A stretch of 26,810 bases of DNA from a virus, in IMG/VR virus record IMGVR_UViG_3300032562_002517, positions 1 to 26,810 of that record; one strand, given 5' to 3'. The notes below the pieces were generated by a model. That model searched no databases and had not been told where the DNA came from. It worked only from the letters and a program-made list of their open reading frames with translations. The translations under genes were made by a program, and so were the position numbers. Positions 128-24,837 of this stretch are shown one piece after another; position 1 is the first letter of the stretch, and each line of letters opens with the position of its first letter.

Positions 128-745
128 TTATTTATTGTATTTAAAAGTATATCCGTTTATTGATTCTTTTTTATTTCTACATATAGCAGATATCGTTGAA
201 TGCTTTATACATAAATGTCTTGCTGCTTCTCTCATACCTTCCCATGTTTTTATAAAATTACCATATAAATCAAATTGATCTATGGGTTTTCTTTTTCTTT
301 TAGCAATTTCTCCCCACTTTGGATTTTTTTTACCATATAGTGGATGTTTTTCTCTTGAAATTAAGTATCCTTTTTTATACATAGGATTTTTTTCTCCTAA
401 TTGTTTATATCCCTTATTAAAAAAATGATTTTTCTCTCCTTTCCATTGGTCTTTTACCGTAATTCCTCCATCACCTGTTTCTTCTTTTAAATTTGCCCAA
501 TTTTCGCTATCAACTACGTTAAATATTTTAGAATAATATAGTCCTATTTTAATTAGATCATCTCTATCCTCTGTTTCATGTAATATCCATGTCTTGATAT
601 CTTTAGGACATAAATTATGTTTTTTTATATGTAGCTTCCAATATTTGCCGGATCCTAAATAACTATCATGATTATTGAGAGTAGTTTTTCCTAAATAGAA
701 TAATCCTAGTGGACTTTGTTTAACATATATCTTAGTTAATTTCAT
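128..745 (-). CDS. GIY-YIG-like homing endonuclease with NUMOD3/NUMOD1 DNA-binding modules
   Basis: This 205-residue protein is probably a mobile homing endonuclease. The N-terminus (KIYVKQSPLG, then FYLGKTTL at about residues 16-23) resembles a GIY-YIG nuclease core. Residues 108-150 hold repeated GEKNPMY/GEKHPLYGKKNPKWG patterns typical of NUMOD3. Residues 154-203 (FDLYGNFIKTW, AARHLCIKHSTIS, GYTFKY) match a NUMOD1 helix-turn-helix module. The DNA is much more AT-rich than the sugar genes around it. Its ATG overlaps the TGA of the truncated GT2 fragment at 742-873, as if it was inserted into or next to a GT2 gene. The nuclease subtype is less certain than the DNA-binding modules because the GIY half is divergent. 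Confidence 0.8.
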   Translation of the reverse strand: MKLTKIYVKQSPLGLFYLGKTTLNNHDSYLGSGKYWKLHIKKHNLCPKDIKTWILHETEDRDDLIKIGLYYSKIFNVVDSENWANLKEETGDGGITVKDQWKGEKNHFFNKGYKQLGEKNPMYKKGYLISREKHPLYGKKNPKWGEIAKRKRKPIDQFDLYGNFIKTWEGMREAARHLCIKHSTISAICRNKKESINGYTFKYNK

Positions 746-873
746 AAAATAAAAATGGATCCAGAGGAAGCAAAGATCGGGGCATGCCTCAATAAAGAAG
801 CGTAAACATTCTTTAAATGCCTTAAATTATTGTAAGACGGTATTATTACCGTAATGTCCTCTTGAGTTAACAT
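742..873 (-). pseudogene. Orphan N-terminal fragment of a GT2 glycosyltransferase
   Basis: A 43-codon frame begins at ATG 873, overlapping the stop of the upstream GT2 gene by 7 bases, and ends at a TGA that overlaps the endonuclease ATG at 745. It starts MLTQEDITVIIPSYNN and continues RHLKNVYASLLRHAP, the first strand-helix unit of a GT2 enzyme. The tail IFASSGSIFIL no longer fits the family. Plus-strand bases 790-855 are visibly similar to 48-110, the start of the next GT2 gene, so this is either a duplicate start or the 5' stub of a gene cut by the endonuclease insertion. A 43-residue piece cannot be an active transferase. Confidence 0.7.
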
Positions 874-2012
874 AATCTTAATTTTGGTTGTTTTGATTTT
901 TTTGATTTAACATTTAGCCAGAACGGGTAAAGTTCGTAAGTTCCTGGGCCCTCCACTTCCTCGTGAATAATGTCCTGTAATTTTCCAAGTAGCGGTTGGA
1001 AAAAGTTATCGGGATTTATTATGTCCTTGTAATTCGCAATGAGCACAATGTCGTCATCCAGTTTCTGAACGAATTTATCTTTTAAATCAAAAGATGTGTA
1101 CTGCTGCATCTGCTTGCAATACTCTTCAGGATCAACATCAATTTTAATGTGATCAAAGTAAGGTTCAATTAAATTGAGTATGCGATGCTCTTCGCACCTT
1201 TTAACCTCTATCCCCAAATTGTATTTAATGTTTGGTATTGGATCTAGCGTTTCGGAGTGTTTTATGAAAGAACCCCACTTTCTGATGTATTCATACATGG
1301 AGATCATATTATTAGTCATCCATTGCGGATCCTTATGATTGAAATCTTCCAACACCCTTGCGTCTGCGAATTGTCCTCCCCTACAGGTCAAGTGATACAC
1401 CATCGCAGACCACGATTGAATTAGTTCGTAACCGCACAACTTCATTCTTCTAAAAAGATCGGCATCCTCAAAAACCGAAAGAAATATTGGGTCATGACAC
1501 AAGTGTTGTTCCTTTTTTATCAACCAAGGAGCAAATATACTATTCGTTATTTTATCTGATCCGTTGTTCAGTACAAACTTATTAAATTCTTCTAGTTTTA
1601 AATCTTCCGGCCATATTCCAAAATCCATAACTATTTTTTCTTGGCCAGGTGGATGAAGAGGGGGTTCGATCCTTGTTGCGCAAACAACGTTGTTATCGTT
1701 CTTTAACATCATCATGTGCCTATCCGCGTGGGGGCCAAGTATCATGTCCGCGTGAAACGCTATTATGTAATCGTACTTTGCTTCTTTAAACATTGTATCG
1801 TACGCGTGACCGATGCCCTGTGGAAAACTCATCCAGTTGTCAATGTGCCTAATTCCCTCTGAATTTAACCACTCTATCGTTCCATCATTATCTTGATCTA
1901 CGTACACCAATATTTCGTTGTCCTTAAAATACGAATTGTCCTGTATTGATTTGATGCAGGGTTTCAAGTACCTCAGATTATTTTTTGAGGGTATGCAAAA
2001 CGTAATTGCCAT
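867..2012 (-). CDS. Glycosyltransferase family 2
   Basis: This 381-residue GT-A enzyme should transfer a sugar from a nucleotide sugar in the cytoplasm. Residues 3-12 (ITFCIPSKNN) form the first strand, DQDNDGT at 39-45 is the nucleotide-binding acidic segment, FHADM at 86-90 stands in for the metal-binding DXD motif, and FEDADLFRR at 181-189 fits the catalytic-base ED motif. The C-terminal ~130 residues are not a recognisable domain. Its start at 2012 shares a base with the stop of the GT17-like gene, and its stop overlaps the start of the GT2 fragment at 873, so it sits in a tightly coupled operon. Linkage and donor are unknown. Confidence 0.85.
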   Translation of the reverse strand: MAITFCIPSKNNLRYLKPCIKSIQDNSYFKDNEILVYVDQDNDGTIEWLNSEGIRHIDNWMSFPQGIGHAYDTMFKEAKYDYIIAFHADMILGPHADRHMMMLKNDNNVVCATRIEPPLHPPGQEKIVMDFGIWPEDLKLEEFNKFVLNNGSDKITNSIFAPWLIKKEQHLCHDPIFLSVFEDADLFRRMKLCGYELIQSWSAMVYHLTCRGGQFADARVLEDFNHKDPQWMTNNMISMYEYIRKWGSFIKHSETLDPIPNIKYNLGIEVKRCEEHRILNLIEPYFDHIKIDVDPEEYCKQMQQYTSFDLKDKFVQKLDDDIVLIANYKDIINPDNFFQPLLGKLQDIIHEEVEGPGTYELYPFWLNVKSKKSKQPKLRLC

Positions 2013-4753: not shown

Positions 4754-5317
4754 TCATTTTATTGTTACTGACCAAGAACTGTCCGGGTATATTGTCAAAT
4801 CGTTCACCAAATTTTCTTCGTACAATATTGTGTATATGTGAGGAAGGTAAAAATCGTGGCCGCACAGTGTACCACCGGGTCTGACCTTATTTTTCCATGC
4901 ATTGATGTCCGACCTCACACTGGTGGGATCGTGCTCTGCGTCTATGTACGCTGCATCAAGAGAAAAGTCCTTAAAATCCTTGGAAGCTTCTACGCTGCTC
5001 TTCCTTATTTTAATAATATTTTTAATGTCCTTAGTTCTTTCCAAGAAAAGTTTCTCTGCATCTACAAACAATTGATCGTGGGTGGGAATCCTTCCCGTTT
5101 GCGGCACAACGTAATCGTAACAATCTACGCTGTACACTGTATCAACGAACATCGCAAATAACATTGTGGAAACCCCTTGAAATGATCCGATTTCCACCAT
5201 TCTGTAATAGGGTTTAAAATTTCTGTCTATCAGTTGATAAAGTCCCTCAACGCTGTTGTGCGGTTCCAGAGGGGCGTGTCCCATCCTGGGTGTTTTAAAA
5301 AGTTCTTCTATTGTCAT
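4754..5317 (-). CDS. Class I SAM-dependent methyltransferase (glycan-modifying type)
   Basis: This 187-residue protein carries a short class I methyltransferase fold. VEIGSFQGVST at 41-51 is the SAM-binding glycine-rich loop, VYSVDCYD at 61-68 gives the acidic end of beta 2, and DAAYIDAEHD at 121-130 is the family motif seen in Methyltransf_24-like enzymes, with a metal-binding-like acidic pair. GGTLCGHDFY follows as the next strand. The start overlaps the preceding gene's stop (ATGA), so the two are translationally coupled. In a glycosyltransferase operon it probably O-methylates a sugar, as phage and bacterial surface-glycan methyltransferases do, but the substrate is inferred. Confidence 0.8.
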   Translation of the reverse strand: MTIEELFKTPRMGHAPLEPHNSVEGLYQLIDRNFKPYYRMVEIGSFQGVSTMLFAMFVDTVYSVDCYDYVVPQTGRIPTHDQLFVDAEKLFLERTKDIKNIIKIRKSSVEASKDFKDFSLDAAYIDAEHDPTSVRSDINAWKNKVRPGGTLCGHDFYLPHIYTILYEENLVNDLTIYPDSSWSVTIK

Positions 5318-6684
5318 TTCATGTTTTTTTGTGTTGGATTATAATACGGATGATTTCTACCGTGAAAACCAAATGGCACTATTCCTGCTGTTTCTGGCAC
5401 CTGAGTTTCGTGACTGAACCTCGCTGCCAGTTCTACAGGAGCGAATTTACATCCGTTTGATTCGTACTCTTTTCTATTGTGACAACAGAAAAAACCGTCC
5501 TCGTGATAGTACCCAAAGTAGGGCTTCCACTCAAGATCAATTTTTGTGGCCAGCTCCAATAATTTTTTGCTTCTCAAAGAGAAACCTCCGTTTCCCACCC
5601 TGCAAATGTTTCCCTCTGGGTCCCTAAAAGAAAAATCGTCTTTGGGTAAGTGCCATGGGGCCCCAATGTAATCGTAATCCAAAAATTCAGGATCCCACAT
5701 TCCCGGGTTAACTACGTAGCCATCGTTCTGTACAAGTAAACAGTGTTTGGTTTGTACGTACTCGTGAAGTCTGTACACAATGAAGTGATTGTACTGCTCA
5801 TAATTTAATGGTTCGCACTTGATTATTTGAACATAATCGTCTTGCAAATCTTCTGGCGTTATTAACTTCGCTTCCGCAAAATCCAGTCCTTTGCAACTGT
5901 ATTTTATAGCCTTTAAAGTTTCAACGGCTTTTGTACCTGCCACTCCTATTATCGTAACGTCCTCCAATTTTATTTTTGTGCTTTTTTTCATTCTTTCAAC
6001 CTCCCTCTCCTTTGCTTGTTCAGTTATCATTGTAGTTGTTCTCACCTCAGAATCTCTATTAACAGCACAGACGCTGTCTATCACTATAGGAAGCCCGTAA
6101 TTATCGTACAATCGCTTGTAATATTCTACGTCGACCAGCCAATTCAGGGACTCATCGAATAGCATTGGGTTTTCATTCTTGATTGTTAGTACGGTTGGAC
6201 AGCTTATCGTATTAATTCCTTCGTGTATTCTATCGTGATACCTCGGTACCATTTTATCGTACACCGTTACGCAATCCCTTGTGTGTACGCATGCAGTAAC
6301 GAACCAGCGATTATCGGGGTTTTTAAGAATACTTTCATGTATGATTTCCAAAGAATTTATGTCATAAAGAAAATCGTCCTGAAATAGTATTTTTATGTAT
6401 TTACCGCCGCAATTTTTAATCGCACTATTCAAATTTGGGGCAATTTTGCCTCTCCCCCTTGAATTTTTAAAGTATCCAACGTCCAAAAAATCTTTCCACC
6501 TAAAGCAAACGTCCCTTATGGAATTGTCAAAGCTGTGGTCAGAAACCACAATTTCAAAGTCCTTAAACGTTTGTTGCGCCAAAATGTTAAAAGAATGATC
6601 CAAGTACTCAGCCCCCTTCCCTGCTATTTCCCAAGTTGGGATCGCAACGCTAAAAAAAGGTCGTTTGATTAAACTATCGTCCAT
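5314..6684 (-). CDS. Two-domain GT2 plus DUF5672 glycosyltransferase fusion
   Basis: This 456-residue protein joins two transferase-like domains. Residues 9-215 are a GT2 domain (PFFSVAIPTWE at 9-19, IVVSDHSFDNS at 45-55, LFQDDFLYD at 100-108, and WLVDVEYY at 182-189 as a catalytic-base region). Residues 240-456 look like DUF5672, with LLVQNDGYVVNPGMW at 316-330, YDYIGAPW at 337-344 and VGNGGFSLRS at 363-372. DUF5672 proteins are often adjacent or fused to transferases, so one polypeptide may add two successive sugars. The start overlaps the fucosyltransferase stop by 16 bases, and the end is coupled to the methyltransferase. Neither linkage can be assigned. Confidence 0.82.
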   Translation of the reverse strand: MDDSLIKRPFFSVAIPTWEIAGKGAEYLDHSFNILAQQTFKDFEIVVSDHSFDNSIRDVCFRWKDFLDVGYFKNSRGRGKIAPNLNSAIKNCGGKYIKILFQDDFLYDINSLEIIHESILKNPDNRWFVTACVHTRDCVTVYDKMVPRYHDRIHEGINTISCPTVLTIKNENPMLFDESLNWLVDVEYYKRLYDNYGLPIVIDSVCAVNRDSEVRTTTMITEQAKEREVERMKKSTKIKLEDVTIIGVAGTKAVETLKAIKYSCKGLDFAEAKLITPEDLQDDYVQIIKCEPLNYEQYNHFIVYRLHEYVQTKHCLLVQNDGYVVNPGMWDPEFLDYDYIGAPWHLPKDDFSFRDPEGNICRVGNGGFSLRSKKLLELATKIDLEWKPYFGYYHEDGFFCCHNRKEYESNGCKFAPVELAARFSHETQVPETAGIVPFGFHGRNHPYYNPTQKNMK

Positions 6685-7517
6685 GTTTCTGGGTATAAAT
6701 CTTTAGTATCGTGTATTCCTTCGTAAGCGTGTCCGAACCATTTCTTTGGGGCTATTACCCTCTTGTTAGGATTGTTGTTTAGCCACGCTGCCCACCAACT
6801 GAAAGAACTATTTGCTATAATATTGTGATGACACATACTCATAGCACACATGTCTACCTCAGGTTCGTTATTCTCCATATAAATTATACCTTCTGATTCT
6901 CCGAAAAGATTCTTAGCGTATTCTATATCGTCAGAGAATATTACAAAGTACTTGTCTGTGTTATGATCTTTGTCGCTGAATTCCATCATTGCGCTGAAAT
7001 AATAATCTGCGTCCATTACCGGATGAAACTGTTGTAGTGCTTTGTAATCTCCCACTCTAACGTGAACCGATACCAGCTCAGGGTTTCCTGGTATTTTTGG
7101 TAATGCGTTCTCTGCTTTTTTCTTTATTTCTCTATCGAATTGAAAAAATCCCAATATTAAATCAGAGCAGTGTTCGAAGTACTTTTCAGTTTGAAAGTAT
7201 CCCATCAAATTGGTCTGATCCGGTATAGCAAAGAATTCTGGAAAGAAATGAAATCCTGGTTCTTGCGCTACGTGATTTGTTTCTATCTGATCTAATGGAG
7301 CCAAGGTCATTGTTACATTAGGAAAATATTTTGGTAAATCAAAATACACTTCTCTCGTAACTCCATCTTTAAAGTCTTCTACGCTTGGTATTTCTGTGTT
7401 CTCTTTTGGAAATACGAAGCCTTTGTTTATTTTTCTAGCGATACCAACTGTTGCAGCGAACTGAAACATTTGATTTCCGAGTCGGCCATGCTTTCCTATG
7501 TACTTGAATGAAATCAT
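6669..7517 (-). CDS. GT11 alpha-1,2-fucosyltransferase
   Basis: This is a clear 282-residue GT11 enzyme expected to move fucose from GDP-fucose to a galactose-type acceptor in alpha-1,2 linkage. GRLGNQMFQFA at 11-21, the donor-binding VHVRVGDY at 151-158 and NSSFSWWAAWL at 236-246 are all intact. The ATG at 7517 overlaps the TGA of the upstream homing endonuclease, which means expression is coupled to a mobile gene. No GDP-fucose synthesis genes are visible in this window, so the donor would come from the host or from elsewhere on the genome. It is a second, better conserved copy of the family seen at 2859-3749. Confidence 0.9.
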   Translation of the reverse strand: MISFKYIGKHGRLGNQMFQFAATVGIARKINKGFVFPKENTEIPSVEDFKDGVTREVYFDLPKYFPNVTMTLAPLDQIETNHVAQEPGFHFFPEFFAIPDQTNLMGYFQTEKYFEHCSDLILGFFQFDREIKKKAENALPKIPGNPELVSVHVRVGDYKALQQFHPVMDADYYFSAMMEFSDKDHNTDKYFVIFSDDIEYAKNLFGESEGIIYMENNEPEVDMCAMSMCHHNIIANSSFSWWAAWLNNNPNKRVIAPKKWFGHAYEGIHDTKDLYPETWTIV

Positions 7518-8161
7518 TTTGTTTTAAATTTTAATCGGCCTAATTTCCAACCATTTTTAATATATGATTCTACATCATTAGATTTTATTTGTGATTGAAT
7601 TTCATCTTTATACATCCATTTAGATCCTAGTATGGTTTTAGATATTTTAGATTTAGCTTCCGGATTCCTACGAATAGGATTATTATCTCCCATTTTAATC
7701 TTCCTCATCTTTTCTAGAGTTTCTTCTGAATGTTTTATTCCGAATCTATTGTTAGCTGATCCTGTGTATAATTTAAGTTTTGCTTTAGTTTCATCTGTGT
7801 GTAATCTCCCAGTATTTTTCTCTCTTATTTTTTGTTTAGTTTCTTCTGTCATAGTATGAAAATTTCCAGGATCTTGCAAATTTAACATTTCACATCCACA
7901 ATCTTTATATAAATCATAATATAATTTTTCATATTGATTAATAATCTCAAGGCTTACATCTTTAGGAAGCTCATGTACTAATTCAAATGCATGATTTTCT
8001 TTTCCGTATTTTACCATAGACGCATATAATTTACTATTACGTTTAATAAATTTAGCAATATGATTGTGTGTGTTTACATGTTTTCTAACATTTCTACTCT
8101 GCCCAATATATATTTTATTTTTAGGACTAGTTATCTTATATATTCCAGGATTGTTTGTCAT
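7514..8161 (-). CDS. GIY-YIG homing endonuclease with NUMOD3 repeats
   Basis: This 215-residue nuclease has the classical motif GIYKI at 6-10 and IYIGQS at 17-22, followed by Arg residues in the first helix, as in phage Seg-type GIY-YIG enzymes. Residues about 100-170 carry repeated T-E-E-T-K-x-K/L-x-K segments with N-R-F-G-x-K-H-S-E-E-T (NUMOD3), which bind DNA. The gene is AT-rich compared with both neighbours, a usual sign of an invasive element. Its stop overlaps the fucosyltransferase start. The ATATTTATA motif ends 10 bases upstream of its ATG and the 58-base gap to the SDR gene at 8220 holds no other gene. It probably cleaves related phages lacking the insertion. Confidence 0.9.
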   Translation of the reverse strand: MTNNPGIYKITSPKNKIYIGQSRNVRKHVNTHNHIAKFIKRNSKLYASMVKYGKENHAFELVHELPKDVSLEIINQYEKLYYDLYKDCGCEMLNLQDPGNFHTMTEETKQKIREKNTGRLHTDETKAKLKLYTGSANNRFGIKHSEETLEKMRKIKMGDNNPIRRNPEAKSKISKTILGSKWMYKDEIQSQIKSNDVESYIKNGWKLGRLKFKTK

Positions 8162-8180: not shown

Positions 8181-8219
8181 TAATCTACCGACCAAAATGT
8201 CCTATTTTTTTATAACTTA

Positions 8220-9038
8220 TCATAATAATTCATCTATTGATTCTAAAACTGTTTTGGAAGGCTTCCATCCTAAACTCGTTAATTTACTGCATTCTAAATA
8301 CATGTCTTTAACTTGCACTATGTCATGAAATTCTGTGGGTTTCATCGTGCCTATCTTACTCTTTGAATTTAATTTTTGATGTATATGGCTTATGATTGTT
8401 TTAAACAATATTGGTTTTGCAGTAGAGCCTAAATTATATATTTCTCCGCTTTCTCCTTTATCTATTATAAATCTAAGACCGTCAATAACATCTTGCATAC
8501 GTACGAAATCCCTATAAAATTTTCCTCCGTGATAAAGATTAATGTCCCTGTCGTTCTTCATCTCGTCGATCAAATACTGTAGAGCGTTCTTCTTCTTCGA
8601 TACTTTGCCGTCTCCTTTGCCGATTACGTTACCAAGTCTTGTTATGGTGTACTTGATCTTGAACGTTTTGCAATAGGACTCGATCAGTTGCTCTGCTGCC
8701 AGTTTGGTGATCGAGTAGAATCCTTTTGGCTTGCAACAAGAAATCTCTCTTGCAGGCAACTCTACTTCGCCGTAAACGAACCAAGAACTAACGAAATGAA
8801 ACGTAACGTTGTTGTCCTTGTTTGCGTCCAATACTCTCATCAGGTGAATCAAGTTGGTGTTGATGTCCACGTAAGGATCCGTTAACACGTTGTAGTTGTC
8901 TACGGTACTAATTAGGTACAGTATAGCAGAGTTCTGTGGTACTGATAAGATTTCCCTCGGTACCACATTACACTCGTCTTTATATCTTTTACAGAACTCG
9001 GACCCTACGAACCCGGTTCCTCCGAATACTTCAATCAT
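8220..9038 (-). CDS. NAD-dependent epimerase/dehydratase/reductase (SDR)
   Basis: This 272-residue extended SDR follows the aminotransferase-fold dehydratase, and its start shares one base with that gene's stop (TAATG). GGTGFVG at 6-12 binds the dinucleotide, FVSSWFVYG at 82-90 holds the catalytic Ser, and YSITK at 108-112 gives Tyr108/Lys112. RLGNVIGKGD and FRDFVRMQD-type segments further on match sugar-nucleotide SDRs. Since it is coupled to an E1-like 3-dehydratase, it may reduce or epimerise the 4-keto-3-deoxy sugar product, as AscF/Abe-type enzymes do in dideoxyhexose pathways. That role is inferred from position. Confidence 0.83.
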   Translation of the reverse strand: MIEVFGGTGFVGSEFCKRYKDECNVVPREILSVPQNSAILYLISTVDNYNVLTDPYVDINTNLIHLMRVLDANKDNNVTFHFVSSWFVYGEVELPAREISCCKPKGFYSITKLAAEQLIESYCKTFKIKYTITRLGNVIGKGDGKVSKKKNALQYLIDEMKNDRDINLYHGGKFYRDFVRMQDVIDGLRFIIDKGESGEIYNLGSTAKPILFKTIISHIHQKLNSKSKIGTMKPTEFHDIVQVKDMYLECSKLTSLGWKPSKTVLESIDELL

Positions 9039-18934: not shown

Positions 18935-18972
18935 GGCCTTTATTGTTTATTAATAATTATGTTCAATCCCAG

Positions 18973-19048
18973 TACCCGTGACAGGAGTCGAACCTGCAAA
19001 AAAACTTGGGTTTAAACCAAGCGCGTCTACCATTTTCACCACACGGGC
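18973..19048 (-). tRNA. tRNA-Leu(UAA) with short poly-U variable region
   Basis: Acceptor 5' GCCCGTG (19042-19048) pairs with CACGGGT (18974-18980). The anticodon loop TTTAAAC gives UAA. The D-arm (GTGAAAATGGTAGACGC) is class II leucine-like, but the variable region is only a T7 run, not the usual stem. CCA is not encoded. Confidence 0.85.
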
Positions 19049-19054
19049 GTTGTG

Positions 19055-19128
19055 TACCCGCTGTCGGAGTCGAACCGACAAAAATTACGGTTTGAACGTA
19101 ATGCGTTTACCAATTTCGCCAAGCGGGC
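19055..19128 (-). tRNA. tRNA-Leu(CAA), short variable region
   Basis: GCCCGCT (19122-19128) pairs with AGCGGGT; loop TTCAAAC gives anticodon CAA for UUG. The T-arm GTCGG TTCGACT CCGAC is perfect. The variable region is only five T, again lacking the leucine long arm. Confidence 0.85.
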
Positions 19129-19133
19129 AAGTG

Positions 19134-19207
19134 TACCCCGGGAGAGACTCGAACTCTCAAATCCCTGAGCCTAAATCAGGTGGATATGCCAATTCTCCTA
19201 CCAGGGC
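19134..19207 (-). tRNA. tRNA-Leu(UAG), short variable region
   Basis: GCCCTGG pairs with CCGGGGT; the anticodon stem CCTGA/TCAGG encloses TTTAGGC, anticodon UAG, reading CUA. Variable region is 5 nt (GATTT). Despite its letters, this is a leucine decoder, not an amber suppressor. Confidence 0.82.
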
Positions 19208-19270
19208 AATAACGCAGTCTTTCCTGCTGTCATCGATTTACAATGCCTACACTAATCGAGAAACCCTGCG
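19208..19270 (-). other. Structured spacer between tRNAs
   Basis: The minus strand reads CGCAG ... CTGCG at its ends with an inner TCGATT ... AATCGA pair, so it folds into a long imperfect hairpin directly after the 143-nt tRNA-like gene. No tRNA T-loop is present. It may be a processed small RNA, a degraded tRNA or a spacer hairpin. Confidence 0.4.
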
Positions 19271-19413
19271 CTGACAGGAAAGGACTTGAACCTCTACGTG
19301 GTCTTTAGAATCGGAACATTGCGCGCTTTGTGGTCAACCCATTATCCCGTTTTTGTCAGATGCTCCACACCCCCGAGACAAGGGGGCTCGTCTGCCAATT
19401 TCGACACCTGTCA
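19271..19413 (-). tRNA. 143-nt tRNA-like gene, anticodon GUC, ~70-nt variable region
   Basis: A perfect 7-bp acceptor (TGACAGG 19407-19413 with CCTGTCA 19272-19278), a class II-type D-arm (TCG AAATTGGCAGA CGA), a perfect CCCCC/GGGGG anticodon stem with loop TTGTCTC (anticodon GUC at 19377-19379) and a T-arm AGAGG TTCAAGT CCTTT fit a single tRNA. Between anticodon and T-arms lie about 73 nt where 4-20 are normal. A GTGG ... CCAC pair could close this region. Position 37 is T, which is unusual. Activity is uncertain. Confidence 0.65.
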
Positions 19414-19421
19414 ATTTTTAG

Positions 19422-19494
19422 TAGTCCAACCGGGACTCGAACCCAGAATTGCTCCTTAGGAGGAAGCAGTTATGTCCAATTTAACTATTGAACC
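19422..19494 (-). tRNA. tRNA-Arg(CCU)
   Basis: GGTTCAA (19488-19494) pairs with TTGGACT (19423-19429) including wobble pairs; anticodon stem GCTTC/GGAGC encloses CTCCTAA, anticodon CCU for AGG. T-arm CTGGG TTCGAGT CCCGG. Confidence 0.85.
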
Positions 19495-19499
19495 GTTTG

Positions 19500-19572
19500 T
19501 GATTCCGAGCAGGGTCGAACTGCTATACTTTGCTTAGAAGGCAAATGTCCTAATCCATTAAACGACGGAACC
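19500..19572 (-). tRNA. tRNA-Arg(UCU)
   Basis: Acceptor GGTTCCG pairs with CGGAATC; anticodon stem TTTGC/GCAAA with loop CTTCTAA gives UCU for AGA. T-arm AGCAG TTCGACC CTGCT is perfect. Confidence 0.88.
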
Positions 19573-19577
19573 GTAAG

Positions 19578-19649
19578 AGCGGCGGAAAGGAATCGAACCT
19601 TCATCTCCAACTTGGAAGGATGGAGTAATAGCCATTATACGACCACCGC
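19578..19649 (-). tRNA. tRNA-Gly(UCC)
   Basis: GCGGTGG (19643-19649) pairs with CCGCCGC (19579-19585); loop CTTCCAA gives UCC. One T-T mismatch in the anticodon stem. Confidence 0.85.
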
Positions 19650-19660
19650 AAAATGTTTTG

Positions 19661-19732
19661 AGCCCAAACCCGGAACCGAACCGGAAACTTATGCTTACAA
19701 GGCATGCGTTTTTCCAGTTAAACTATTCAGGC
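19661..19732 (-). tRNA. tRNA-Thr(UGU)
   Basis: GCCTGAA (19726-19732) pairs with TTTGGGC (19662-19668); anticodon stem ATGC/GCAT with loop CTTGTAA gives UGU for ACA. T-loop is TTCGGTT. Confidence 0.85.
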
Positions 19733-19744
19733 AAAATAATTTCG

Positions 19745-19813
19745 TACCGTACACAAGTGTCGATCTTGCCTGAGGGTCCTTATGAGGAACTCTTGTTCGC
19801 CGGAACGTACGGT
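19745..19813 (-). tRNA. tRNA with CAU anticodon (Met or Ile2), compact
   Basis: Perfect acceptor ACCGTAC (19807-19813)/GTACGGT (19746-19752). Loop CTCATAA gives CAU. The D-arm is reduced (TC ... GA around CGGCGAACAA) and the T-loop reads ATCGACA instead of TTCGANY, so the 69-nt molecule is unusual. Met versus lysidine-modified Ile cannot be told. Confidence 0.65.
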
Positions 19814-19867
19814 GTAATAGTTTTAAATGCTTCTTCAGTATTTGATATAATAATCAAACTTAATCGT

Positions 19868-19938
19868 TGCTGCGTCCTCGAATCGAACGAGGTTTATTTG
19901 GCTTATGAGACCAACCAGATACCTTACCTCCCGCCAGC
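19868..19938 (-). tRNA. tRNA-Met-like (CAU)
   Basis: Anticodon stem TTGGT/GCCAA with loop CTCATAA (CAU) and T-arm CCTCG TTCGATT CGAGG are clear. Only four bases of the acceptor pair cleanly (GCTG/CAGC); the rest needs a bulge. It is the second CAU gene; it lacks the GGG/CCC initiator stem. Confidence 0.7.
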
Positions 19939-19958
19939 TATGTAATTATTCAAAAATT

Positions 19959-20435
19959 TTATATTTTAGGAGTCAATGCGATGAAACTCTTGTTCCCCGC
20001 TTGGTGCTCCGTCCAATCCATGTTAAAAGCGTACGCCACGTACAGCGCAGTTGCTTTATCTGATTCTCTATTTGTGTCGTCGAACAGAATCGGTACGTTT
20101 CTGGGCAACAGATCCAAATTGTTTTTTATGTTCGGTCTATTGGGACCCACCGGACCGTCGACTACGCACGCATCGTAGTGATTGTAAGTTAAATAATTTT
20201 CCACTCTTCTTCTATCGTACCAACCGTACAAGAGAGGGGTGTGAAAGACTATTTTTCCGGGTTCATCAAAGGGTTTTAACTTTTCGTAATACTCTTCGTT
20301 GTCTTCTATGGATACTACGTAAGAAAATATTTTTCTTAACTCAAGTGTGGCCGCTCCCGAACCTAATTCTAACAAAGTGGAACCCGGTTTTTTTGCCACT
20401 TTGTTGGCCAGCATGTCAAACATTTCAACTGGCAT
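19959..20435 (-). CDS. Methyltransferase-like Rossmann protein within the tRNA array
   Basis: This 158-residue protein resembles a class I SAM-binding domain: STLLELGSGAATLEL (19-33) is the glycine-rich loop, YVVSIEDNEEYYEKL (about 39-53) gives the acidic end of beta 2, and DACVVDGPVGPNRPN (about 88-102) is the post-motif strand used in small-molecule methyltransferases. A GAGGG sequence lies upstream of ATG 20435. However, the reading frame upstream (NREVFEGWS) also looks coding and is preceded by a TAG, so the N-terminus may be truncated. It is unlike tRNA methyltransferases I know and could act on a glycan or small molecule. Confidence 0.7.
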   Translation of the reverse strand: MPVEMFDMLANKVAKKPGSTLLELGSGAATLELRKIFSYVVSIEDNEEYYEKLKPFDEPGKIVFHTPLLYGWYDRRRVENYLTYNHYDACVVDGPVGPNRPNIKNNLDLLPRNVPILFDDTNRESDKATALYVAYAFNMDWTEHQAGNKSFIALTPKI

Positions 20436-20490
20436 TGACCAACCCTCAAAAACTTCCCTGTTTACCTATTGCATGAATAACCTTTTGTTG

Positions 20491-20563
20491 TACTGGAGGA
20501 AGGACTCGAACCTTCAACCTCGATGGTATAAGCATCTTGCGCTAACCATTGCGCCACTCCAGC
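20491..20563 (-). tRNA. tRNA-Ile(UAU)
   Basis: Perfect acceptor GCTGGAG (20557-20563) with CTCCAGT (20492-20498), a good D-arm (GGCGCAATGGTTAGCGC), loop CTTATAC giving UAU for AUA, and T-arm GAAGG TTCGAGT CCTTC. Most bacteria read AUA with a lysidine CAU tRNA; a UAU gene is uncommon outside phages. Confidence 0.85.
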
Positions 20564-20571
20564 AAATTTAA

Positions 20572-20641
20572 CTACCCACCCTTTAAGTAATCATCTCTGT
20601 GCCGCCATCCACGTCATGCGCTGGTTATGCATGGCGGGTAG
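20572..20641. other. Compact inverted-repeat structure overlapping the coiled-coil gene end
   Basis: ctaccc (20572-20577) can pair with gggtag (20636-20641), ccgccat (20602-20608) with atggcgg (20631-20637), and catgc (20615-20619) with gcatg (20628-20632). The pairings partly compete, so the RNA could switch between folds. It may end the coiled-coil transcript or be a processed small RNA. No T-run follows. Confidence 0.4.
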
Positions 20642-21524
20642 TGTAAATTTTTTGTATAGATATAAAACTAACCAATTCTTTTTTGGTGCTTACTATTTTA
20701 AAACCGTTATTATATATATCTATTGCGTAAATTACTTTTTCGAAAAATTTCGGTTGTTTTATAAAAGTTTTTACGGATTGATATCCATTTACAACAATTT
20801 TTACGCTCTTGGAATATTCCATTTCTTCTCTGTCCCTAAGGGAAATTTTACCGCTTCCGCCGTCAGTAGAAAGTACAATGCTTCCAGTAGCGTCCTTTAC
20901 AACTACATAAACTTCTGCTGTATCGTTGTTCATCAATCTATTTTCAACGTCGAACGATATTTCAAGTTCGTCTGTTCTTTTAGCCGATTTGACCCTCTTT
21001 ACTTCTCCGTTGTTTTTTACTTTAAGGGCGGTTACGTTAATCGAACGAGCGAACAATGTTGAACCAACGTCAACCATCGATTTTAATACTTCGTTGGTGT
21101 CCTTTACTGATTGTACCTGTTTTACTAGGTCGTCTCCCTGTTTTTGTAATGTATCAACTTTCCCTCTTAGTTCTGAATTCGCCTTTGCGATCTCTTCGTT
21201 TTGTGCAAGCAAAGAATTTATTTTTTCCTCTAATTGCTTGATCAACTCTTCGGCTTTCTTTTTTTCCGCTTCGGTCAAATTCTGTTTCGTTATCAACTTC
21301 CTTATTTCCCTTCTCAAACTGTTAACTTGGGAATTTTTACTGACCAACTTTGACTGCAACACACTATTTTCAGTTAACAGTGAATCCAATCTCACAAGGG
21401 CAGCGCTAAATTCTTTATCAACGTAATCCTTTTCGACAGAAATTTTTGAATATAGTTCGTCCTGCCTTTTAGTGATCTCTGCGTGCTTGTTATTGTTGTA
21501 GAGAGCAACTCCCCCAACTTGCAA
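20625..21524 (-). CDS. Coiled-coil protein with damaged N-terminal membrane anchor
   Basis: The 299-residue frame starts at TTG 21524. Residues about 15-145 form a heptad-like coiled coil (EKKKAEELIKQLEEKINSLL region), followed by a beta-rich domain (ELEISFDVENRLMNND, EVYVVVKDATGSIVLSTDGG) at about 185-260. This resembles Bacteroidetes coiled-coil proteins with a short N-terminal transmembrane helix. Upstream, from ATG 21582, the frames spell MDIKK, then KNLVISVLFFLALA, but in different registers, so single-base insertions and deletions separate the anchor from the body. Either a frameshifted gene, a TTG start or assembly error. Role unknown; perhaps a membrane-tethered structural or inhibitory protein. 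Confidence 0.6.
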   Translation of the reverse strand: MQVGGVALYNNNKHAEITKRQDELYSKISVEKDYVDKEFSAALVRLDSLLTENSVLQSKLVSKNSQVNSLRREIRKLITKQNLTEAEKKKAEELIKQLEEKINSLLAQNEEIAKANSELRGKVDTLQKQGDDLVKQVQSVKDTNEVLKSMVDVGSTLFARSINVTALKVKNNGEVKRVKSAKRTDELEISFDVENRLMNNDTAEVYVVVKDATGSIVLSTDGGSGKISLRDREEMEYSKSVKIVVNGYQSVKTFIKQPKFFEKVIYAIDIYNNGFKIVSTKKELVSFISIQKIYTTRHA

Positions 21525-21582
21525 GAGCTAGAAAAAATAGTACAGAGATTACAAGATTTTTTCAGTGTTTTTTGATGTCCAT
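21525..21582 (-). pseudogene. Frameshifted signal/transmembrane start of the coiled-coil gene
   Basis: ATG 21582 reads MDIKKH then TGA; shifting register gives EKIL, and then KNLVISVLFFLALA, a convincing hydrophobic anchor, in another frame before joining LLQVGGVALYNNN. Two or three single-base changes, near A6 and T6 runs, would restore a continuous membrane-anchored protein. Confidence 0.45.
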
Positions 21583-21594
21583 TTTATTTAATTT

Positions 21595-21651
21595 TTAAGA
21601 TGAACTATACATAGTGAAAAAACCGTGCCAAACTGTCGAATATTCCCACAT
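21595..21651 (-). CDS. Possible 18-residue leader peptide
   Basis: ATG 21651 follows the stop of the 80-residue gene by 3 bases and encodes MWEYSTVWHGFFTMYSSS before TAA. It is aromatic-rich and coupled in position, but too short for a family call. It may be chance. Confidence 0.25.
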   Translation of the reverse strand: MWEYSTVWHGFFTMYSSS

Positions 21652-21654
21652 TTT

Positions 21655-21897
21655 TTAAACGTCCCACTCCCTGCATCCGTGTTCGAAAGCTTCCTCAACA
21701 GAAAGTGTGGGATCATTTTTCATGGCCAACAAAGCAAAAACTATCACTTCAACGTCCAATCCACTTTCTTGTACGTATTGAAGCCTCGAACATATTTTGT
21801 CCATCGCCGAATCTATGTCCGATACTTCACTATCCAAACCGCTCTTCATTTGTAAAACTGTAGAAATTACCTCTTCGCCCGTTAATTCCGTATCCAT
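21655..21897 (-). CDS. Small acidic hypothetical protein
   Basis: I do not recognise this 80-residue protein. It is acidic and mostly helical (VISTVLQMKSGLDSEVSDI, about 10-28; LDVEVIVFALLAMKNDP, about 47-63), with one Cys in ICSRLQ and another near the C-terminus. The start at ATG 21897 has an AT-rich leader (AAAAGTTATG) next to the tRNA at 21913. No membrane segment or nucleic-acid motif is visible. Confidence 0.55.
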   Translation of the reverse strand: MDTELTGEEVISTVLQMKSGLDSEVSDIDSAMDKICSRLQYVQESGLDVEVIVFALLAMKNDPTLSVEEAFEHGCREWDV

Positions 21898-21912
21898 AAC
21901 TTTTAAATTTTA

Positions 21913-21986
21913 GAATTCTGTGAGAGATTCGAACTCCCGTCTCCGGCTCCTTATGCCGGTGCTCTAACCACTGAGCTAACAAAATC
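21913..21986 (-). tRNA. tRNA with AAG anticodon (Leu-type decoder)
   Basis: Acceptor GATTTTG (21980-21986) with CAGAATT (21914-21920), a canonical D-arm (AGCTCAGTGGTTAGAGC), perfect CCGGC/GCCGG anticodon stem with loop ATAAGGA, and T-arm with TTCGAAT. The letters give AAG for CUU. A34 anticodons are rare in bacteria, and the variable region is short, so charging by LeuRS is uncertain. Confidence 0.7.
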
Positions 21987-22092
21987 GACTACTTTTTAGA
22001 GCTTTCTGCAGGAGCTCAATTTAGTAGTGGGACATGAAAGTTATTCCTGTTTCTGCAGTCCAGTTTCGCTTTTCCAATCCCTTTGCTGATCT
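21987..22092. other. Non-coding spacer with small hairpin
   Basis: No gene is visible. gagct ... agctc around 22000-22018 forms a small hairpin, and ctgcagaaa recurs on the minus strand at two places (near 22010 and 22055). It could be tRNA processing spacer. Confidence 0.3.
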
Positions 22093-22156
22093 ACCGGGAA
22101 TTGAGCCCGATTCCTCCCGCCGCATTGCGGGTATGCACCTTACACCACAACCATGA
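22085..22156 (-). tRNA. Degenerate tRNA-like sequence
   Basis: The minus strand shows a weak acceptor (TGGTTGT with TAGATCA), a reduced D-arm and a CCCGC/GCGGG hairpin with a six-base loop AATGCG lacking U33. The T-arm TCGGG CTCAATT CCCGG has C54 instead of T. No anticodon can be assigned (Ala TGC would be the nearest). It is probably a decayed tRNA. Confidence 0.35.
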
Positions 22157-22208
22157 AGCCAGAAATTTCGAACTTTCCAGCCCGGGGTCAATTACTCCCC
22201 GAGTTTGC
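22157..22208 (-). other. tRNA-remnant sequence
   Basis: A T-arm-like GAAAG TTCGAAA TTTC and a strong CGGGG ... CCCCG hairpin with a 9-base loop lie between two tRNAs, with no D-arm or paired acceptor. It may be a tRNA decayed by recombination. Confidence 0.3.
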
Positions 22209-22279
22209 CGAGAGTGGGAGGTTCGAACTTCGACTTTCGTCGTGACAGGACGACGTGCGCGCCATTACACTACACCCTC
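22209..22279 (-). tRNA. tRNA-Asp(GUC)
   Basis: GAGGGTG (22273-22279) pairs with CACTCTC (22210-22216); anticodon stem TCGTC/GACGA encloses CTGTCAC, anticodon GUC. The T-stem is weak (GAAG/CTCC with a mismatch). Confidence 0.78.
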
Positions 22280-22297
22280 GAAATTTTAATTAAACAG

Positions 22298-22375
22298 TAC
22301 TACCGACCGGGATCGAACCGGCACGATGTCCTCATTGAAAGTGAGGTGACCTATTCCCATTTAGTCCCCGGTAGC
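22298..22375 (-). tRNA. tRNA-Glu(UUC)
   Basis: GCTACCG (22369-22375) pairs with CGGTAGT (22299-22305); anticodon stem CCTCA/TGAGG with loop CTTTCAA gives UUC. T-arm TTCGATC. The variable region is slightly long. Confidence 0.85.
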
Positions 22376-22421
22376 ATAAATGTAAAGAATCTATTTTAAT
22401 TTTTACAATACATTTTTTCAG

Positions 22422-22504
22422 TAGTAGCGGTTGGAGTCGAACCAACAATCCATACAGATTATGTGATTTACAGTCACACGCCTGACCGCTTGAGCATCAC
22501 TACC
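22422..22504 (-). tRNA. tRNA-Tyr(GUA)
   Basis: GGTAGTG (22498-22504) pairs with CGCTACT (22423-22429); anticodon stem GTGA/TCAC with loop CTGTAAA gives GUA. The class II variable arm (ATAATCTGTATGGATT) is intact, unlike the leucine tRNAs in this array. Confidence 0.88.
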
Positions 22505-22567
22505 AAATTGGAGGGAAGGGAGAATTTCGAAATCCACTTTAAATATAAATCATTATATAATATTAAT

Positions 22568-23029
22568 TCAATGATCTATAAATTTTTTTGCTTCATTAAT
22601 CTTCTCTTTTGTGTTATTATACAAATCTCTCCATCTTATTCTTAAAATTTTCCATACATGCTTTATACATAATGCGTCTTTTTTATTATCTCTTTCTTTA
22701 TACTCATAAAATCTTTTGTGTTGATCTCCGTCAATTTCAATAGCTTTTTTTAAATCAACCCAAGCAAAATCTAATGAGTATATTCCAATAGGATATTCAG
22801 TTTTATAATTCTTATCCAAAAATTCATTTTTAATAATTTCAACTATCCTTTTCGAACTTACCAACGCACACTTATATTTAATCTCCTCAATCCTTCTCTT
22901 GGGTACATCGTAATGGTGCTTGTGAAACCAACACTTTTTTATTCCCAAATCGTTCGCCATTTTGTACAAATTTTCAACGCTGTAAGGTTCGCACACTAAA
23001 TGTCTACGTTCATCGCAATAGTACTTCAT
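22568..23029 (-). CDS. DUF4031 protein fused to a DUF559/Vsr-like homing nuclease domain
   Basis: This 153-residue protein has two halves of different base composition. Residues 1-68 match DUF4031 (MKYYCDERRHLVCEP, LYKMANDLGIKKCWFH, HHYDVPKRR, KCALVSSKRIVE), a small phage/bacterial family of unknown function. Residues 75-153 are an AT-rich segment with YSLDFAWVDLKKAIEIDGDQH (84-104), showing Asp87, Glu98 and Asp100 of a PD-(D/E)XK Vsr/DUF559 nuclease core. DUF4031 proteins usually stop where the nuclease begins, so a homing endonuclease may have been captured in frame. It overlaps no tRNA but lies between tRNA-Tyr and tRNA-Ser. Confidence 0.75.
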   Translation of the reverse strand: MKYYCDERRHLVCEPYSVENLYKMANDLGIKKCWFHKHHYDVPKRRIEEIKYKCALVSSKRIVEIIKNEFLDKNYKTEYPIGIYSLDFAWVDLKKAIEIDGDQHKRFYEYKERDNKKDALCIKHVWKILRIRWRDLYNNTKEKINEAKKFIDH

Positions 23030-23035
23030 CTTTTG

Positions 23036-23120
23036 CGGAAGATAGAGGTAACGATCCTCTTTGAGTTTTACCCCAGCCTCAGTTTAGCAAACTGGCCATT
23101 TACCTTTCATGCAATCTTCC
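23036..23120 (-). tRNA. tRNA-Ser(GCU)
   Basis: Perfect acceptor GGAAGAT (23114-23120)/ATCTTCC (23037-23043); loop TTGCTAA gives GCU for AGC/AGU. The class II variable arm (GAGGCTGGGGTAAAACTC) is present. T-loop ATCGTTA is non-standard. Confidence 0.82.
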
Positions 23121-23131
23121 AATTGACGGCG

Positions 23132-23203
23132 GGTGTAGGGACGGTATCGAACCGTCTTCCCGGGCTCCACAAACCCGTGCATCACCTTAATGCTTCGAAC
23201 ACC
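23132..23203 (-). tRNA. tRNA-His(GUG)
   Basis: Loop TTGTGGA with stem CGGGT/GCCCG gives GUG. The His-specific G-1 (23203) faces C73 (23132). T-arm GACGG TTCGATA CCGTC is perfect. Acceptor has two mismatches near its base. Confidence 0.78.
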
Positions 23204-23209
23204 GTTTAA

Positions 23210-23291
23210 AAAATCTCCTGTGTGCTACTCCTACCGGTCCCATGTTCGGCGGTTAAAAGTAAGGTACATCTTTTAGTCACCCAGAGATTTT
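23210..23291. other. 82-nt stem-closed element between tRNAs
   Basis: aaaatctc (23210-23217) and gagatttt (23284-23291) form an 8-bp closing stem. Inside are ACCG ... CGGT pairings and CTTTTAA resembling a Lys anticodon loop, but no T-loop. It may be a decayed tRNA or a distinct small RNA; it abuts the next tRNA. Confidence 0.4.
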
Positions 23292-23292
23292 G

Positions 23293-23374
23293 CGGAGGGT
23301 GACGGACTCGAACCCTCACAAGTTTTACCCCTTCACCGTTTTCAAGACGGCTAACTACTCCTTTAGGACCCTCC
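23293..23374 (-). tRNA. tRNA-Ser(UGA)
   Basis: Perfect acceptor GGAGGGT (23368-23374)/ACCCTCC (23294-23300); stem CCGT/ACGG with loop CTTGAAA gives UGA, reading UCA. The variable arm (TGAAGGGGTAAAACTTGT) is long as expected for Ser. Confidence 0.88.
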
Positions 23375-23379
23375 AAAAA

Positions 23380-23733
23380 TCATTTATAATATATCCTCTC
23401 CGGGTACTCCCCAAACATAAACAGAGTCACTGGGCACAGCCACATGGTCAAGTTGGAGTAATCTATTCCTTTGTAATTGCCTATCCTGTAATAAGCTCCA
23501 AACTCATCCCCGAAATCGTCCTCTCTTTCCAGTGTTATGTACTCGGAACCTTCAAATTCTTCGGTGTCAAGTACCAACGTTATTTCTGATTCACCATAAC
23601 TCAAAACGTCCAACCAATAGTCCGCTCCGGCCACCATCTGACACGCTTCCTTTGTTCCTCCTGCCTCTATGTAATCCGGTAAATCTGCGTACCAACAACC
23701 CGATGCTTCCTTGTAAAATCTTAACTCAATCAT
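23380..23733 (-). CDS. Hypothetical acidic protein, possibly DUF6717-like
   Basis: This 117-residue acidic protein begins MIELRFYKEASGCWYADLPDY and continues with GGTKEACQMVAGADYWLDVLS (about 25-45). The alternation of aromatic residues with W-Y-A-D-L-P and V-A-G-A-D resembles the DUF6717 group, but I am not sure. The C-terminus (MWLCPVTLFMFGEYPERIYY) is aromatic and hydrophobic. It is a single gene between tRNA-Ser and tRNA-Gln, with a leader of AAAAAATAAATGTT before ATG 23733. Function unknown. Confidence 0.6.
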   Translation of the reverse strand: MIELRFYKEASGCWYADLPDYIEAGGTKEACQMVAGADYWLDVLSYGESEITLVLDTEEFEGSEYITLEREDDFGDEFGAYYRIGNYKGIDYSNLTMWLCPVTLFMFGEYPERIYYK

Positions 23734-23749
23734 AACATTTATTTTTTAG

Positions 23750-23822
23750 TTGTCCCACTCCGAATCGAACAGAGATTACTAGGGCCAAATCCTAGTGTAA
23801 TTAGCCATTATACCATGGGACA
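23750..23822 (-). tRNA. tRNA-Gln(UUG)
   Basis: TGTCCCA (23816-23822) pairs with TGGGACA (23751-23757); stem CTAGG/CCTAG with loop ATTTGGC gives UUG. T-loop TTCGATT. Confidence 0.87.
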
Positions 23823-23838
23823 GTTTAAACTTTTTTAG

Positions 23839-23908
23839 AGCGACTAGCCAGATTCGAACTGGCATCTCAGCCTTGACAAGGCCGAACACTAACCGTTGCA
23901 CCACACCC
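23839..23908 (-). tRNA. tRNA-like with GUC anticodon and unpaired acceptor
   Basis: D-arm (GTGCAACGGTTAGTGT), anticodon arm CGGCC TTGTCAA GGCTG (GUC, Asp) and T-arm GCCAG TTCGAAT CTGGC are good, but the 5' GGGTGTG does not pair with the 3' TAGTCGC. The acceptor may have been replaced by recombination or eroded. It is the third GUC gene in the array. Confidence 0.6.
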
Positions 23909-23959
23909 GTGTTTCTAAATTTCCCTATTTCAAAGAACCCAACATTCAATACTTTCATT

Positions 23960-24048
23960 GTGCGCCCAGAAGGATTCGAACCTTCAACTGACTTACGTCT
24001 CCCCACTGGTTAAAAGCCAGTTGCTCTACCAATTGAGCCATGAGCGCA
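23960..24048 (-). tRNA. tRNA-Lys(UUU) with expanded variable arm
   Basis: Acceptor TGCGCTC (24042-24048)/GGGCGCA (23961-23967), canonical D-arm (GGCTCAATTGGTAGAGC), stem CTGG/CCAG with loop CTTTTAA (UUU) and T-arm GAAGG TTCGAAT CCTTC. The variable region is about 20 nt (TGGGGAGACGTAAGTCAGTT) instead of about 5 nt, with repeated CAGT at the edges suggesting an insertion. Confidence 0.82.
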
Positions 24049-24104
24049 TTATTTTTTAAATGCCGCACTCACGCTTATTCGGTGCAGCAACTAACGTTTT
24101 CGTT

Positions 24105-24758: not shown

Positions 24759-24763
24759 ATTTT

Positions 24764-24837
24764 GTGGTAACGAGAAGTATCGAACTTCTCTCTTAAGTTT
24801 TTCAGACTTACGCTAATCCATCTCAGCTACGTTACCA
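24764..24837 (-). tRNA. tRNA-Phe(GAA)
   Basis: Perfect acceptor TGGTAAC (24831-24837)/GTTACCA (24765-24771); stem TAAGT/ACTTA with loop CTGAAAA gives GAA. T-arm GAGAAG-type with TTCGATA. It directly precedes the homing endonuclease ATG. Confidence 0.87.

Follow-up and report, generated by a model that had tools for sequence, protein, structure and literature searches.

The 26.8-kb phage fragment analyzed here (26,810 nucleotides; hereafter the window) carries a free-standing endonuclease gene, HEG1, between two glycosyltransferase genes, and we consider it very probable (roughly 0.88) that HEG1 entered near the 5′ end of the downstream gene, GT397, together with a foreign copy of that gene's 5′ part, leaving the old start stranded and a restored, hybrid gene behind the nuclease. 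At the sequence level, the proposal draws on the gene order of HEG-free relatives, stranded gene starts, a foreign 1.35-kb tract, the hybrid gene itself, and the repetition of the same layout around a second nuclease gene, HEG2.

A stranded start and a hybrid gene at the HEG1 site

Read along the minus strand, the gene order is GT381 (2012-867), a 43-codon open reading frame (ORF; 873-742), HEG1 (745-128), and a glycosyltransferase start (122-1) that is cut by the window end. GT381 encodes a family-2 glycosyltransferase (PF00535, E 4.4e-11) and HEG1 a 205-amino acid free-standing endonuclease with a C-terminal NUMOD1 module (1.3e-05 in Pfam). The 43-codon ORF begins MLTQEDITVIIPSYNNLRHLKN; its ATG overlaps the GT381 stop, its own stop overlaps the HEG1 ATG at position 745, and the new GT397 ATG lies five bases behind the HEG1 stop, with the gene exiting the window at base 1. 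An earlier note on this DNA had described the ORF as a 43-codon glycosyltransferase N-terminus overlapping the endonuclease ATG, and the downstream gene as starting alike in both protein and DNA. Both observations hold: the N-terminus of the ORF shares 19 of 31 residues with the start of the downstream gene (none of 20,000 residue shuffles scored as high, the shuffle maximum being 11), and the DNA local score between fragment and downstream start is 54, whereas 2,000 mononucleotide shuffles reached at most 41. The glycosyltransferase assignment, however, applies to the first 91 bases of the ORF (873-783, codons 1-30 plus one base), whereas the stretch from 782 onward is nuclease leader, namely a residual 37 bp of the HEG1 element (782-746) that is read as the last codons of the ORF. 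From position 782 this leader reads CCCCGATCTTTGC..., or CCCCGATCTTTGCTTCCTCTGG... in the ORF reading.

Two other contigs are >99.9% like the window over overlaps of 7,012 and 1,756 bases, and a 200-base junction stretch is base-for-base the same in 3300032753_002239 and 3300031759_000277, which makes a one-sample assembly chimera unlikely; matching junctions elsewhere, in two contigs for this site and in one contig for the second site described below, led us to reject this explanation. One of the two near-identical contigs, L003, holds the complete downstream gene, GT397, which codes for 397 amino acids (L003:1635-2828).

The nuclease-free relatives indicate what GT397 was before. In L036, L037, L038, and L040-L045, the stop of a GT381 homologue overlaps the start of a full-length GT397 homologue, whose ATG takes the same position as that of the 43-codon ORF. 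GT381 (867-2012, minus strand) is thus the native upstream neighbor of GT397, and the nuclease-free phages carry two glycosyltransferase genes, GT381 and then an uninterrupted GT397, which supports the earlier proposal that the endonuclease had inserted into a glycosyltransferase (GT2) array, here in one of its genes. Their GT397 homologues start MLTQ-, MLRQ-, or MLSQ-, and the window's fragment shares 21-22 of 32 residues with the starts in L036, L037, L040, L044, and L045 and 20 of 32 with that in L038. Because the relatives start GT397 at this very position, codons 1-30 of the 43-codon ORF (873-783) are read as the stranded native GT397 start rather than as part of a third gene, and no third glycosyltransferase copy is needed, since the HEG-free relatives hold both GT381 and GT397. 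Among the observations that count against our preferred explanation, the fragment is no nearer the starts of L037-L045 (20-22/32) than that of L036 (21/32).

We surveyed the best 80 of 182 GT397-family stretches, with up to 3 kb of upstream DNA and less in many (L092 begins inside the gene). HEG1 lies upstream of GT397 in three of these best 80 (L033, L034, and L035, which correspond to this phage, L007, and L008, respectively), and no HEG1 match is found in the upstream DNA, of up to 3 kb, at the other 77; one of the latter, L050, has a weak 30% HEG1 match far downstream. The nuclease search added one more HEG1 locus, L015. Across the 77 HEG1-less loci among the best 80, a similarity search and a stub scan found no short GT397 ORF standing without the nuclease. 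This bears on the alternative that the fragment has a function of its own, either as a short gene or in coupling nuclease expression to GT381 as a translational leader. The stop/start overlaps at both fragment ends would suit such a role, and overlaps of this kind are discussed in an account of T4 endonucleases (PMC2988022), but no such ORF is seen in the HEG-free relatives among the best 80 GT397 loci, L007 and L008 carry a different upstream ORF, and L015 has yet another arrangement. We regard a dedicated function of this kind as very unlikely, even if the fragment may serve coupling by chance.

The layout of the HEG1 element can also be followed in other phages. An exact-pattern scan of the viral collection found the leader in five viral contigs, all five of which carry HEG1, and the sequence before the leader differs in L007, L008, and L015. 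In these three, ATGTTAAGA is followed by about 120 bp of leader, HEG1, and a gene that resumes with the new start ATGAATCAAAAAAAT. ATGTTAAGA equals the first three GT397 codons in the empty allele L036, and 630 of the 660 bases past the new start are the same in L008 and L036. With ATGTTAAGA before the leader and ATGAATCAAAAAAAT after HEG1, the insertion in L007, L008, and L015 is placed near codon 3, with an element-borne new start of about five codons. HEG1 is polymorphic among the relatives for presence and absence at one site, with L036 as the empty and L008 as the occupied allele. A HEG-free allele of this very phage was searched for and none was found, which makes the placing of the left junction in the window, and of any microhomology at it, tentative. 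L015 differs in two further respects: a methyltransferase-like gene, so named by its sequence, lies in two frames between GT381 and the HEG1 leader (L015:4590-5287), and an in-frame gap shortens its HEG1 by 14 residues.

A three-segment fit of L003 to L007 delineates one tract, L003:975-2320, in which only 17 of 1,346 positions mismatch (98.7% identity), set between flanks with mismatches at 91 of 183 positions on the left and 328 of 835 on the right. The tract, whose left boundary L003:975 corresponds to window position 782, covers the last 37 bp of the leader, HEG1, and GT397 codons 1-228, and it is in this 1,346-bp stretch between divergent flanks that co-conversion of DNA flanking HEG1 is seen. 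L003 and L015 likewise agree from the HEG1 start to L003:1989, at 45/47 to 60/60 positions per 60-column window, bar the in-frame gap of L015. In protein trees of 26 chosen loci of the 80, where L003, L007, and L008 stand for the copies L033, L034, and L035, residues 1-226 of GT397 place L003 with L007, L008, and L036 (100/99), and residues 238-397 place it with L037, L038, L039, L040, L044, and L045 (100/100). By its sequence, GT397 is a hybrid, with a foreign 5′ part up to about codon 228, a native 3′ part, and an intact reading frame; its 5′ end is common to another phage lineage, from which it was most likely imported.

The same data speak against the earlier suggestion that the gene was repaired by a paralogous copy. 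GT381 and GT397 are indeed neighbors, related at 34% identity, but the new 5′ end is orthologous to that of another phage, L007, with 98.7% identity over a single tract of leader, nuclease, and 228 codons, and in-genome repair from a paralogous glycosyltransferase, contradicted by both tract and trees, has a negligible probability. Third-position GC in the L003 gene is 0.20-0.28 in the first 160 codons and 0.39-0.45 after codon 240; this was dropped as evidence for import because a similar rise occurs in the HEG-free L036 and partly in L037. The structure model of the hybrid GT397 is moderate (65.5), and a PDB search with it returns chondroitin polymerase, heparosan synthase, TarP, and GtrB among the matches. 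Since residues 179-233 are of low confidence, the model no more than hints at a domain border coinciding with the end of the tract (codon 228).

A second site and further cases in relatives

The layout recurs on the minus strand of the window, at FT282. The TGA of EPI272 (8220-9038), an epimerase-like gene named from its sequence, overlaps the native start codon of the glycosyltransferase gene that follows, as it also does in nuclease-free relatives. In the window, this ATG opens a second stub, MISYKKIGHFGR, which covers 12 codons of the native FT282 5′ end (8188-8223) and is ended by a TAG (8187-8185). HEG2 (7514-8161), a GIY-YIG nuclease with NUMOD3, follows, and its stop overlaps the ATG of FT282 (6669-7517), a glycosyltransferase-like gene, again named from its sequence, of which approximately the first 10 codons (7517-7488) would represent a replacement start by analogy with L128.

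On its own, the likeness of the second stub to the downstream start appears modest (8 of 12 residues, a score reached in 53 of 100,000 shuffles), and it is the relatives that carry the case. The stub matches the start of nuclease-free L125 at 34 of 36 bases and the downstream copy at 21 of 36. In the nuclease-free L118-L127, L129, L131, L134, and L138, the gene starts at the stub position, overlapping the EPI272 stop, and nuclease-free FT282-family starts read MISYKKIGHFGRLGNQ-, MITYNKIGHFGRLGNQ-, or close variants. Of 157 FT282-family stretches, 80 were checked for HEG2 and 40 had their starts read; among the 80, HEG2 lies upstream in four (L113, which is this phage, L116, L117, and L128), and the window shares with L116, L117, and L128 the exact base at which the stub ends. 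For the stubs of the four HEG2 loci, the closest among 15 HEG-free starts agrees at 31-35 of 36 bases; with their own replacement starts, the stubs agree at 21-24 of 36 and differ at 12-15. Among themselves, the replacement starts (window, L114, L116, L117, and L128) agree at 31-36 of 36 bases, and with the best HEG-free start, that of L134, at 25-28. Furthermore, L128, with HEG2, and L129, without it, share 22 of 36 bases in FT282 codons 1-12 and 777 of 789 in codons 13-275; with wider flanks about 84-95% identical, the two are near-allelic at FT282 rather than isogenic.

L114 holds no HEG2; at L114:2944-3001, the stub MITYKEIGHFGQ and a TAG are followed by roughly 20 bases retained from the 3′ end of HEG2 and then by the replacement start. 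Because those bases of HEG2 are still there, we read this nuclease-free stub as the footprint of a later HEG2 loss, perhaps by deletion between short direct repeats (GATTAA.ATTT). Over the whole protein, FT282 shows 92% identity between the window and L114; wider, whole-gene exchange thus seems to happen here too, a point against the preferred explanation. In the same part of the window, a 456-amino acid ORF (5314-6684) combines a GT2 and a DUF5672 domain, which in L115 look, as read by eye, like two successive ORFs.

Further cases come from relatives. A NUMOD3 nuclease gene of L129, HEG3 (L129:281-892), whose GIY-YIG match is below cut-off, lies exactly at the start of a DegT-family aminotransferase gene that begins again behind it. 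From the sequence, HEG3 appears to use the old aminotransferase ATG as its own, with an in-frame ATG 30 bases upstream existing as well. The aminotransferase genes of L129 and L128 are identical at 565 of 713 positions over the first 720 bases (about 240 divergent codons) and at 552 of 565 over the rest, and the HEG3 site shows no stub beyond the common ATGATAA. In L079 (1351-2151), a 10-codon stub, MSKSPLTFCK, overlaps the stop of the preceding gene and is followed by an HNH nuclease (1435-2151) and a glycosyltransferase starting MKINEKSPFTFC / MKINEKSPFTFCIGTYNNL; a glycosyltransferase of L094, 87% identical to that of L079, starts MGKSTKHKLTFCISTYNNL and has no nuclease before it. A generic scan of the window and the collected loci for a stub, an ORF, and a gene with a like start (score at least 34) returned 12 hits, five of them distinct: the two window sites (112 and 38), L079 (36), L068 (36), and L052 (34), as compared with 0 hits on a shuffled control. 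L079 counts as a further case because its middle ORF is the HNH nuclease, and L068 and L052 were rejected, their middle ORFs being a glycosyltransferase and a methyltransferase, respectively. Stubs of lower similarity, as in L116 and L117, escape the scan, as do genes truncated at the end of a locus.

Taken together, these cases bear on a further alternative, namely ordinary mosaic recombination, in which the tract was acquired by homologous exchange between phages with the nuclease as a passenger. Glycosylation islands recombine freely, the whole of FT282 seems to have been exchanged between the window and L114 lineages, and nuclease cleavage is itself a proposal. Mosaic exchange nevertheless sits poorly with three cases, each with a different nuclease and a different gene (GT397, FT282, and the L129 aminotransferase), in which the foreign tract starts at the nuclease element and takes in the 5′ side of the downstream gene. 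It also sits poorly with the L128/L129 pair, which differs at FT282 by little beyond the element and its start. We therefore rate it as improbable relative to nuclease-linked replacement of the gene start.

The nucleases and a proposed route of entry

HEG1 is probably of the GIY-YIG type. Its match to the group I intron endonuclease model TIGR01453 (8.3e-4) is below cut-off, and it shares 30% identity with T4-type genes annotated as GIY-YIG homing endonucleases, which themselves give NUMOD3 and no GIY-YIG match in Pfam; HEG1 likewise has no match to the Pfam GIY-YIG model, where NUMOD1 is its only hit. The family phrog_314 ('homing endonuclease') is matched by the L008 copy of HEG1 (1.6e-09) and by HEG2, and is not among the matches of the window's HEG1 copy at E 0.001. 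A profile comparison of HEG1 with HEG2 is weak (probability 14), the AlphaFold model of HEG1 has a mean pLDDT of 33.8, no solved structure matching the HEG1 profile was found, and the 54 pattern-matching stretches in the genome collection include 0 HEG1 relatives. HEG2 matches GIY-YIG (PF01541, 1.5e-05; 25.6 bits with a cut-off of 22.6), NUMOD3 (PF07460, 1.5e-09), and TIGR01453 (62.6 bits with a cut-off of 56.05). Between L003 and L008, HEG1 shows a dN of 0.051 and a dS of 0.597 (dN/dS about 0.09) and is under purifying selection, as expected for a nuclease that is still selected.

HEG1 is free-standing in that it has its own start and stop, the next gene has its own start, and a search of L003:700-2900 and L007:400-2500 gave no Rfam match up to E 1. 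A group I intron or intein splitting GT397, with the fragment as exon 1, would be in keeping with a NUMOD-module nuclease within a gene and with the weak TIGR01453 match; splicing, however, would duplicate residues, as the residues of the fragment recur in the downstream ORF behind an ATG of its own, and the Rfam search of those two regions was negative, as was Pfam at E 0.1 for an intein domain. We accordingly give a spliced gene next to no weight as compared with a free-standing element.

Near the distant HEG1 relatives of T4-like and Vibrio phages (L030, L031, and L032), we found no clear stub of the downstream gene, the best 12-residue scores being 21, 19, and 17, versus 30, 38, and 56 for the cases described here. 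In L030 and L032 (the Klebsiella KMI12 and Yersinia TG1 phages), these relatives overlap the start of a topoisomerase large-subunit gene, a position habit like that of HEG1, without a clear stub. Elsewhere in the window, a minus-strand cluster of 19 tRNA genes (18972-24836) includes two nuclease-like genes, one with a DUF559 match (23029-22568) and one matching PHROG endonuclease families and, weakly, phage endonuclease I (24758-24105).

As to the route of entry, we propose that, in a co-infection, HEG1 would have cut a GT397 allele lacking the nuclease, somewhere from about codon 3 to codon 228. On the downstream side, repair would have proceeded by homologous recombination with an L007-type donor, ending near codon 228, in a conserved stretch around codon 229. 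On the upstream side, the left arm of the donor (ATGTTAAGA plus the full leader) is unused, which argues for a non-homologous join inside the leader, perhaps at a short common sequence (CAT.CCCC): the leader would have been joined at CATGCCCCGATC here, as opposed to CATTCCCCGATC in L007, L008, and L015, with 30 native codons left behind. The carried 5′ end could both preserve the gene and, as different DNA, shield it from re-cutting.

More generally, these nucleases appear to propagate by exchanging the 5′ portions of functional genes. We put it at slightly better than even that free-standing nucleases of this kind act as natural 'home-and-rescue' drives, in which the nuclease travels with a divergent 5′ end of its target that restores start and frame and removes the cut site; four nucleases, of GIY-YIG/NUMOD and HNH types, would then have converged on this solution at four genes of the window and its relatives, driving the swapping of catalytic parts in glycosylation islands. 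Such drives could enter functional glycosylation genes at their conserved 5′ end and still not inactivate them, and the stubs and hybrid genes would be footprints of nuclease-plus-5′-end units. The HEG1 site would show a free-standing homing endonuclease occupying coding DNA without intron, intein, or split gene, by means of a substitute front end. It would also account for the short 'orphan' gene starts next to phage nucleases and for the way in which hybrid glycosyltransferases can arise through selfish nucleases, here with the first 228 codons foreign and the 3′ part native. With L128 and L129 as occupied and empty alleles, cutting, immunity, and rescue are directly testable.

Comparison with known systems

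Within phages, the closest background is provided by the T4-like group, for which free-standing homing endonucleases of the Seg and Mob kinds are described, together with gene-splitting insertions such as mobE in nrdA of Aeh1 and mobA in gene 60 of T4 (PMC2988022). According to the same account, phage nucleases cut alleles that lack them, and repair copies the nuclease and co-converts its flank. HEG1 and HEG2 resemble the Seg and Mob enzymes, as described there, in being free-standing phage nucleases with flank co-conversion and insertions within genes; mobE and mobA, however, are presented as splitting a gene into two polypeptides (PMC2988022), whereas here the carried 5′ end makes the gene whole and leaves a stub. 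In T4 intron homing, an illegitimate join at microhomology is described as possible where one side is without homology (PMC2988022), and such one-sided repair fits the left junction of HEG1, with the difference that the former is a laboratory intron system and the latter a natural event with putative microhomology. Among the papers listed in searches of an open-licence library, none describes, by title or abstract, 5′-end replacement by a phage homing endonuclease.

Outside phages, the WHO elements of Torulaspora and Lachancea yeasts are described as free-standing endonuclease genes that home into FBA1 and replace its 3′ end at each integration; displaced gene-end fragments remain by the nuclease, FBA1 evolves as a chimera, and the carried end confers resistance, with both cleavage and resistance tested (PMC7282813). 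As in that description, one end of the target gene is replaced upon integration here and fragments are left behind, with the 5′ end in place of the 3′ end. The WHO elements, by the same source, are eukaryotic, intein-derived, and equipped with zinc fingers, in contrast to the phage GIY-YIG/NUMOD- and HNH-type nucleases considered here, known from sequence alone; the intein-like domain and zinc finger of WHO are absent, as Pfam gives only NUMOD1 for HEG1 and only GIY-YIG and NUMOD3 for HEG2. Fungal mitochondrial mobile ORFs offer a second parallel, described for Glomus atp6, atp9, cox2, and nad3 and for Allomyces macrogynus atp6 (PMC3630166): in that account, too, an endonuclease ORF is inserted with a foreign gene end, the gene becomes a hybrid, and the displaced native end is kept. 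The ends exchanged there are carboxy-terminal and mitochondrial (PMC3630166), whereas those reported here are amino-terminal and belong to phages. HEG1 and HEG2 thus work like the WHO elements and the fungal mobile ORFs and are members of neither.
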